This document shows, piece after piece, positions 61,571 through 64,000 of a DNA stretch of 64,000 nt. Numbering within the stretch: the first letter of the stretch is position 1; the number at the start of each line of letters is the position of its first letter. This DNA comes from Victivallales bacterium. Lineage in GTDB: Bacteria > Verrucomicrobiota > Lentisphaeria > Oligosphaerales > Oligosphaeraceae. Both the position numbers and the translations under genes were made by a program. The stretch covers positions 1-64,000 of the forward strand of contig JAFZIJ010000221.1 in NCBI GenBank assembly GCA_017554445.1. The letters run 5' to 3'. Below the pieces are notes generated by a model. The model searched no databases. It was given only the letters and a program-made list of their open reading frames with translations, and was not told the DNA's origin.

Positions 61571-61709
61571 AGTTTCATTTCTGCTGGATTCACATCCGCA
61601 AGTATGGTCTTCGCATTGTCATGCATTAATACAGCCCGCTCCCGTCTCCCGTGGCCTTCCTTTCAGACTGGCTTAAATGCTTGACATGCTTGCCTTTTCC
61701 ATGCAAAAG

Positions 61710-61783
61710 TGGGATGGCCGGGACTCGAACCCGGGACCCCCGCATTAAAAGTGCGATGCTGCTACCGACTGAGCTACCATCCC
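61710..61783 (-). tRNA. tRNA-Lys (anticodon TTT)
   Basis: Minus-strand cloverleaf: acceptor GGGATGG/CCATCCC, D arm, anticodon stem TCGCA/TGCGG with loop CTTTTAA, T arm CCGGG-TTCGAGT-CCCGG. The anticodon TTT reads AAA/AAG. The CCA end is not encoded. Discriminator base A. Confidence 0.96.
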
Positions 61784-61971: not shown

Positions 61972-63480
61972 ATGTCTATCCAAGAACAATGGCAGCAAAT
62001 GCGCAAGGCGACGACGGCCTCGGAGCAGCAGCTTCTTGAGCAGTTCATCCCATGGACAGAAGAATTCACGGCGGCTGAGAACGACGCCAACGGAGCTTTC
62101 GTCCATTGGCGCGCACTAGACAAGGAAACCAGGCTTGGCCTTCTCAGAAACGCCATCGGCGGCACAATCGTCTCCCATCCAAAATGCCCGCAGATAGAAC
62201 TAGGCTTCCTCTACGCCCTCTACCAGTTCCTCTGCCACCGCAGGACGTTCATTTGCTGCCCATTGGTCATCGACGCTTTGACCATCCGCCATCTGATGGA
62301 GCACGCCGCCGCCCTTGAAAAACTGCGCATTGACCTGCTCGGCCATTGCGTCGGGGCCTCCCATCGCCATCTTTCGGACTGCCAGAACTGCGATTTCGCC
62401 TTTGCAGACTACTTCCAATTCTTCTCGGCCATCAAACGGCAGCCAGACATCTTCAAGAGCCAGGTCCAGGCTGTCTTCATTCTGGAAGGCGACTTCAGCC
62501 TCTACGCCAACCGCATCATGGTCTTCGAACACAACATTCCCAAGGCCACAGGCATTGTCTATAAGTCCACGGGCAAGATTCCGGAAAGCTGGAACAGCGG
62601 CGGAGACATCGTGGATATTATGACCTATCTGAAGGATGCCAAGCTCACGCTCGCCGGCGCTTCCTGCCACATAGACCCGTATGTCGCGGAAGAAGTCAAT
62701 CAAGTCATGGGATCCTCTTTCCGGAAACCTCTGAAAGGGGACAAGCATCTTCCGTTCTCTGCCTTCACGTACCGCACGGCGGATGAACGCGCCTCCGCCG
62801 TCGCCAACGACGTTGCGAAGGCGAAGGGCAACGCATTCATCATCTGCTATTCAGATCCCATCCTTCTGAAGATTCAGGAGGAATTCCGCAAGAGCGGCCT
62901 TGACTACACCTTCACGACGCGTTCGGCGGATATCAACACATTCTTCGAGATGAAGACTGGAGATGACAAACGGCGGATCATGATCTTCCGCGGGTTGCCG
63001 TCGCCGCTTGTGTTCCAGGACAAGCCGCTTTGCGATGGTGCGCTCTTTGTGGCGGAGCATTTCGTCAGCATGGCGGTCCATGACAAGCTCTTCTCGTTCA
63101 GCAGGCTCATATTCAATGAGACGCAGGTGCCGAAGATCTATTTCTCCTTGGAGGACAGCTTGTTCGCCATCTACGAAGAAGACGCCCAGTTCAAAAAGCT
63201 CTTCAATATCATCGATTTCACGGAGAAATACGACCCATGGAAACAAATCCGCCGCGTTCTCGCGAAGGCCATGCTCAACAAGCTCCATAAAGTGCGTACG
63301 ACATGCCTCAACGAGGAGATGGTCATCTTCACGACATCGCTCGTCAAAGTGGCCGACCACTACGCTTCCGGCATCACACAACAGCAGCAAAGGGCCGCCA
63401 AGACCTCCGTCAAGATGGAGGCTCTCTGCTTCTGCGGTTCCGGCAAGCCCTTCAAGGAATGCCACGGCAAGAGGAAATAA
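61972..63480 (+). CDS. SecA-derived protein lacking ATPase motifs, with SEC-C tail
   Basis: 502 residues. By eye it follows SecA from NBD1 to NBD2. The section QVQAVFILEGDFSLYANR stands for SecA's Walker-B DEVDS region; LTLAGASCHIDPYVAEEVNQ for LAGMTGTA; FTYRTADERASAVANDV for the YRTEEEK region; IYFSLEDSLFAIYEE for FYLSLEDDL. Walker A (GEGKT) is absent and DEVD is LEGD. The GRAGRQGDPG motif is also lost. The last residues CFCGSGKPFKECH form an intact SEC-C zinc motif. The PPXD and translocation wing are shortened. ATPase activity seems impossible; a SecB- or ribosome-linked adaptor role is a guess. Confidence 0.72.
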   Translation: MSIQEQWQQMRKATTASEQQLLEQFIPWTEEFTAAENDANGAFVHWRALDKETRLGLLRNAIGGTIVSHPKCPQIELGFLYALYQFLCHRRTFICCPLVIDALTIRHLMEHAAALEKLRIDLLGHCVGASHRHLSDCQNCDFAFADYFQFFSAIKRQPDIFKSQVQAVFILEGDFSLYANRIMVFEHNIPKATGIVYKSTGKIPESWNSGGDIVDIMTYLKDAKLTLAGASCHIDPYVAEEVNQVMGSSFRKPLKGDKHLPFSAFTYRTADERASAVANDVAKAKGNAFIICYSDPILLKIQEEFRKSGLDYTFTTRSADINTFFEMKTGDDKRRIMIFRGLPSPLVFQDKPLCDGALFVAEHFVSMAVHDKLFSFSRLIFNETQVPKIYFSLEDSLFAIYEEDAQFKKLFNIIDFTEKYDPWKQIRRVLAKAMLNKLHKVRTTCLNEEMVIFTTSLVKVADHYASGITQQQQRAAKTSVKMEALCFCGSGKPFKECHGKRK

Positions 63481-63543: not shown

Positions 63544-64000
63544 ATGTTCGTCACATTTGGCCTAGACACGACAGACACGCCTAACAAGATCAAGGAGTAC
63601 ATGAAATACGGCGCGGAGGAGTTTTTTGCGGGATTCATCCCTCGCAATTGGCTCTCCAAATACGGCTGGGAGGTGTGCCCCAACCGCAGACCGCTCGGCC
63701 ATACCTACAACTTCCTGCAGGTCGCCGATCTGCGGGAGGTTGCGAACGCCATCCATGATAACGGCGGGCGGCTCAATCTCGCCATCAACGCCCACGACAA
63801 CGGCTCCGAGCGCCTTCCCTACCTTCGTGCTACCGTGGAAACCATGGAGCAGTTCAATCCAGACGGATACATCGTCGCGGATCCCGCCGTCATGTTCAGC
63901 CTCAAGGCGTGGGGCATCAACAAACCCATCCACCTCAGCACAGGCGTCGGTTGCTTCTCTTCCGAAGCTGTCCGTTTTTTCTGTAAGCAGTTCAACATCC
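63544..64000 (+). CDS. U32 peptidase-like protein, N-terminal part
   Basis: 152 codons are in the window; the gene continues to the right. FVTFGLDTTDTPNKIKEYMK, GAEEFFAGF and LNLAINAHDNGSERLP, then PDGYIVADPAVMFSLK and LSTGVGCFSSEAVRFF match the collagenase-like U32 barrel N-terminus. U32 proteins include tRNA- and ubiquinone-hydroxylation factors besides peptidases. ATG 63544 lacks a clear ribosome site. Confidence 0.8.
   Translation, partial: MFVTFGLDTTDTPNKIKEYMKYGAEEFFAGFIPRNWLSKYGWEVCPNRRPLGHTYNFLQVADLREVANAIHDNGGRLNLAINAHDNGSERLPYLRATVETMEQFNPDGYIVADPAVMFSLKAWGINKPIHLSTGVGCFSSEAVRFFCKQFNI

Follow-up and report, generated by a model that had tools for sequence, protein, structure and literature searches.

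U32 oxidases form a young family, and much about their substrates and mechanism is still to be worked out (PMC11574389). In Proteobacteria, UbiU and UbiV form a [4Fe-4S] heterodimer that works together with the lipid-binding SCP2 accessory UbiT (PMC6747719, PMC10470549) in the O2-independent hydroxylation of ubiquinone, and in known operons UbiT is encoded beside UbiU-UbiV. Other U32 oxidases, namely TrhP and RlhA as well as YrrN/YrrO from B. subtilis, are prephenate-dependent, sometimes occur as a tandem pair and act on tRNA or rRNA; they share an E-C-C motif, which is essential in TrhP and RlhA (PMC6599085). The literature consulted describes no SecA-like partner for these enzymes. The SEC-C domain of the preprotein translocase motor SecA binds SecB and ribosomes (PMC6620043). 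Among PVC bacteria, secondary SecA_DEAD proteins have been reported, which retain the SecA_DEAD domain and are encoded alongside type I secretion proteins (PMC4452313). Searches of open-access papers for a SecA pseudo-ATPase or for a SecA paralogue in Lentisphaerae yielded no account of the ATPase-dead family treated here or of its link to U32 oxidases.

The window analysed here is the whole stretch of 64,000 nucleotides at the start of contig JAFZIJ010000221.1, from a Victivallales MAG which is 90.5% complete (GCA_017554445.1). Its last part holds a SecA-like gene followed by the beginning of a U32 oxidase gene, with the following features:

61972..63480, + strand: SecA-derived, predicted pseudo-ATPase, whole gene (SecA fold, profile with controls, dN/dS, 18 homologous genomes)
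62158..62566, + strand: NBD1-like RecA domain, about residues 63-198 (strand-loop-helix order in the AlphaFold2 model; collinear hhalign with SecA NBD1)
62173..62194, + strand: degenerate Walker A loop, residues 68-74 (SHPKCPQ), where SecA has TGEGKT
62482..62493, + strand: DEVD box reading LEGD, residues 171-174 (homologue alignment)
62650..63175, + strand: NBD2-like RecA domain, residues 227-401, with YFSLEDSLF at its end (profile alignment, PDB profile search, SLED register)
63214..63306, + strand: family-specific conserved block DFTEKYDPW.QIRRVLAK plus helix, residues 415-445, replacing the SecA helical scaffold
63424..63477, + strand: SEC-C metal-binding tail CFCGSGKPFKECHGKRK, residues 485-502 (PF02810)
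63544..63999, + strand: UbiU-like U32 oxidase gene, first 152 aa, 63 bp downstream of the SecA-like gene; the 362-aa gene runs on to C215:64632

The SecA-like gene is a real ORF of 502 aa with an ATG start, which the first-pass annotation had delimited exactly. Between close relatives its dN/dS was 0.09-0.14, i.e. it is under purifying selection, and a pseudogene was ruled out by this ratio of about 0.1 and by intact frames. An ordinary secA (980 aa) is encoded on another contig of the host genome (G000:C97), in line with the earlier advice to look for a complete copy elsewhere. A tRNA-Lys (ttt) gene lies just upstream of the SecA-like gene, on the minus strand (window 61709-61783).

In the Pfam search of the 502-aa protein SEC-C (PF02810) alone matched, searches with the single protein against Pfam, NCBIfam and PDB (phmmer) gave nothing beyond SEC-C, and hhalign against one SecA aligned the SEC-C region only. 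Homologues from relatives of the window organism were aligned (n=18 sequences, alignment A1) and an AlphaFold2 model was built from this alignment, with a mean pLDDT of 85.9 and a pTM of 0.85. The model displayed two RecA-like nucleotide-binding domains in SecA topology. When it was compared by Foldseek with 350,542 PDB chains, ranks 1-27 went exclusively to SecA or SecA2, the lowest E-value being 1.0e-12, and the first non-SecA helicase appeared at E 2.9e-8. At the sequence level, the A1 profile matched SecA chains of the PDB, among them 3bxz, the E. coli motor in isolated form, via the NBD2-like region alone and each time weakly (E 0.03-0.1). With full-length SecA profiles, hhalign reached a probability of 87% but the register was wrong; PPXD and SEC-C were therefore removed and shuffle controls were used. 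Against the SecA motor trimmed in this way, hhalign gave a collinear path from NBD1 to NBD2 over 368 columns (E 3.7e-4, probability 36%). The A1 profile without SEC-C scored a median of 7.4 bits and at best 14.3 bits against 36 real SecAs, the maximum being 6.2 bits for 1,080 shuffled SecAs and 1.3 bits for reversed sequences. Profile alignment paired the NBD2-like region with SecA residues 494-679, and the SLED and LAG motifs were in register with SecA.

A generic superfamily-2 helicase likeness combined with an unrelated SEC-C motif, without any descent from SecA, would agree with SEC-C as sole Pfam match, with hhalign probabilities of only 36-87% and a wrong register in some settings, and with the RecQ, ISWI and SNF2-type helicases that come after SecA in the fold list. 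Such an origin is nonetheless highly improbable given the occupation of fold ranks 1-27 by SecA, the best of them about four orders of magnitude ahead in E-value of the first non-SecA match, the higher scores of real SecAs over their shuffles and the register of SLED and LAG. We regard SecA descent as established, but only by structure and sequence jointly. The first-pass annotation had proposed this descent, from NBD1 to NBD2, and had named a profile search finding SEC-C without SecA similarity as a refutation. Pfam did return precisely that; the result is misleading in this case, since the similarity to SecA is real though below Pfam detection, as the predicted fold (also suggested in that annotation as a check) and the shuffle-controlled profile together show. 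A viral origin was considered as well and rejected, the BFVD search returning generic helicases only.

The motifs on which the SecA motor depends were found to be degenerate throughout the family, largely as had been read by eye from the single sequence. In the AlphaFold2 model, strand 66-68, a loop and helix 74-87 fill the position of the P-loop. Walker A (GxGKT) is missing in all 18 homologues, its Lys and Thr being absent from every one of them; the former P-loop reads HPKCPQI in the window protein and mostly GxGPQ in the other homologues, with Gln74 invariant. The DEVD box, annotated as LEGD, is LExD in the family: its first Asp is lost, Glu172 is kept in 17 of 18 sequences and Asp174 in 18 of 18. 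Neither motif V nor motif VI (QLRGRxxRQGD, the arginine finger) was recognisable in the family alignment or in the comparison with SecA, which bears out the earlier description of the arginine-finger region. The preprotein-crosslinking domain (PF01043) gave no Pfam match and its region has shrunk to a short hairpin; likewise, no Pfam match was obtained for the helical scaffold/wing (PF07516), of which about one helix is left in the model. On the C-terminal side of SLED, the DFTEKYDPWxQIRRVLAK block is followed by about one helix, a disordered linker and SEC-C. This tail is intact, as had been noted: PF02810 matches residues 485-500 with 27.9 bits (cut-off 20.4), the CxCx(8)CH/C zinc motif is complete, and CFCGSGKPF(K/R)(E/D)CHG is kept in every homologue whose C-terminus is covered. 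From the motifs we infer that ATPase activity was lost, while the retained Glu172 and Asp174 make some unconventional nucleotide binding possible. Compared with SecA, the window protein shares the pair of RecA-like domains and their order, the SLED motif, a flexible C-terminal linker and the SEC-C tail; it differs by the lack of Walker A, motif V, motif VI and PPXD, by a scaffold/wing of about one helix and by other genomic partners.

Analysis of the distribution of the family showed it to be present in 18 of 48 genomes of Victivallales, the order of the window organism. Outside this order no member was found among 388 genomes from the phylum, where other matches concerned SEC-C only, and many relatives with SecA have no SecA-like family member. 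The published secondary SecA_DEAD proteins from PVC bacteria (PMC4452313) are also short SecA-like paralogues from the same superphylum and also have no scaffold/wing. The window protein differs from them in having no PF07517 match and in its neighbours, which are U32, MiaB and SNF2 genes. Elsewhere in the order and class, secondary SecA_DEAD proteins were detected that have 646-846 aa and possess Walker A. The window family produced weak scores only against them, and scores bearing on a possible origin from these short paralogues were equally weak. Short proteins of this type with a kept Walker A, fitting the published description (PMC4452313), were seen at L073-L077 (genomes G053, G034, G032, G057 and G048; Pfam domains were checked for L073), and one 'SecA_DEAD' candidate from G052 proved on inspection to encode a protein kinase. 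In an 846-aa ORF at L078:3923-6463 (G029:C213), an ECF-type sigma factor (Sigma70_r2, r4) is joined in frame with a SecA_DEAD motor whose Walker A is intact; the MAG in question, G029, has a size of 14.1 Mb and 9% contamination.

The gene order at the window locus is SecA-like, 63 bp, UbiU-like (362 aa), 21 bp, UbiV-like (330 aa), MiaB and SNF2 helicase. The order SecA-like, UbiU-like, UbiV-like was observed in examined loci from four families of Victivallales. SecA-like and UbiV-like genes occurred together in 17 genomes (60 relatives examined), with two exceptions in which a contig end cuts the cluster, G024 having the SecA-like gene only and G045 the UbiV-like gene only. The U32 pair is found beside the SecA-like gene in every genome with enough flank to check. 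The MiaB and SNF2 neighbours are conserved within a single family (f1) only; the SNF2-family helicase, of 1374 aa, follows MiaB in several f1 genomes (L088:9105-13229, C215:67104-71228).

The UbiU-like protein matched PF01136 with 84 bits. UbiU was its best NCBIfam model, with a score under the equivalog cut-off, and it is therefore named UbiU-like and not UbiU. Hhalign against six UbiU proteins gave a probability of 99.6% (E 6e-24), and Glu181, Cys189 and Cys196 match the E-C-C motif of TrhP and RlhA. The second protein had no Pfam match and is called UbiV-like with reservation. Its cysteines 76, 255, 274 and 278 are in register with C39, C180, C193 and C197, the ligands of the UbiV cluster (PMC6747719), with a later spacing of CX18CX3C as compared with CXnCX12CX3C in UbiV. 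Its hhalign probability against UbiV was weak (2-8%), and its model (pLDDT 66.8) had the U32 protein 5d88 as top Foldseek PDB match at E 1.5e-3 only. Additional UbiUV-like copies were detected in two genomes: G029 has, besides a full module elsewhere in the genome, a second UbiU/UbiV-like pair without adjacent SecA-like gene (G029:C65, L125:5830-8102), and G035 has a 685-aa in-frame UbiV-UbiU fusion, then another UbiV-like gene, beside the SecA-like module (L082:6856-9875). Distant UbiU/UbiV-like pairs were also seen in other members of the phylum (G256 and G337; L123 and L124), where no SecA-like gene was found and where the pairs adjoin genes for a TrsS/Tes-like radical SAM protein and for an FAD oxidoreductase.

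The module can be compared with UbiT-UbiU-UbiV (PMC6747719). Both systems comprise a UbiU homologue, a UbiV or UbiV-like protein with cysteines in register and one accessory. In the Victivallales module the accessory is a pseudo-SecA and not an SCP2 protein, the later cysteines of the UbiU homologue are spaced differently and a ubiquinone pathway is not evident. The adjacent slot that UbiT holds in known operons is held here by the SecA-like gene, and no SCP2 (UbiT-type) domain was present in the window protein (Pfam) or detected in the genome, bearing in mind its 90.5% completeness. This slot occupancy and the lack of a detected SCP2 are most simply read with the pseudo-SecA as accessory subunit, whose folded two-domain body would bind substrate or organise the pair without ATP, and the conserved U32 pair alongside points to an enzyme partner. 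The SecA-like protein is probably a structural helper of the adjacent iron-sulfur enzymes rather than a component of protein export. More precisely, we infer a physical complex in which the pseudo-SecA would be an ATP-independent, non-catalytic scaffold, the third subunit of the UbiU/UbiV-like U32 [4Fe-4S] oxidase pair, a reading to which we assign a probability of roughly 55%. The weak sequence assignment of UbiV, its mediocre model with a modest 5d88 match, and the additional UbiUV-like copies in G029 and G035, of which that in G029 has no adjacent SecA-like gene, count against it. According to this scaffold model, the SecA motor (NBD1 and NBD2) would have lost normal ATP binding and hydrolysis as well as the preprotein clamp, and the two-RecA body and SEC-C would have stayed. 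The U32 pair would perform an O2-independent hydroxylation, the oxygen donor probably being prephenate as proposed for UbiUV, TrhP and RlhA, and the pseudo-SecA may hold or present the substrate, or dock the complex on the ribosome through SEC-C.

Other partners can be considered. The first-pass annotation had suggested an adaptor or regulator that may bind clients, SecA or SecB. In general terms, an adaptor or scaffold devoid of ATPase activity is still the best idea, with a different partner; a Sec-type partner is weakly supported. SecA ancestry, an intact SEC-C of the kind that binds SecB and ribosomes in SecA (PMC6620043) and the existence of a full SecA as regulation target would suit a role in the Sec pathway. 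However, SecB was not detected in the genome (90.5% complete), the preprotein-crosslinking domain is missing, the conserved neighbours are U32 oxidase and not secretion genes, and the gene is absent in many SecA-bearing relatives, so that this role appears improbable. A literal replacement of UbiT, in which the protein would carry a lipid or a quinone precursor for a UbiUV-like hydroxylase of a quinone or other prenyl-lipid pathway, agrees with the occupied UbiT slot, with the lack of a detected SCP2 and with the two UbiA-family prenyltransferases of the genome. Neither of these reaches the quinone equivalog cut-off, however, and one is nearest to EboC; the adjacent genes include no quinone genes and the RecA-like body would seem to offer no evident lipid pocket. 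Such a carrier is therefore unlikely. It is also conceivable that a residual nucleotide-binding switch with an altered loop gates the U32 pair, which would make the protein regulatory instead of a passive scaffold. The invariant Gln74 and Asp174 and the conserved Glu172 are suggestive in this respect, but with the Walker A Lys/Thr and the motif VI arginines gone in all members a switch of this kind seems distinctly unlikely.

Regarding the substrate of the proposed scaffolded hydroxylase, RNA or the ribosome is our leading guess, albeit a doubtful one, based on the ribosome binding of SEC-C and on the hydroxylation of tRNA and rRNA by U32 oxidases. Since no SecB was detected, SEC-C more plausibly serves to bind ribosomes; because the MiaB neighbour is restricted to family f1, the link to RNA is thin. 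The complete picture, a three-subunit O2-independent hydroxylase with an ATPase-less SecA as substrate-presenting or ribosome-docking subunit and possibly RNA as substrate, is tentative and falls somewhat short of even odds. If true, it would mean that a SecA-derived pseudoenzyme is at work outside secretion, the Sec ATPase having been repurposed, and that U32 oxidases have a third type of accessory. The tight three-gene module would then offer direct access to an anaerobic hydroxylation of a new kind.
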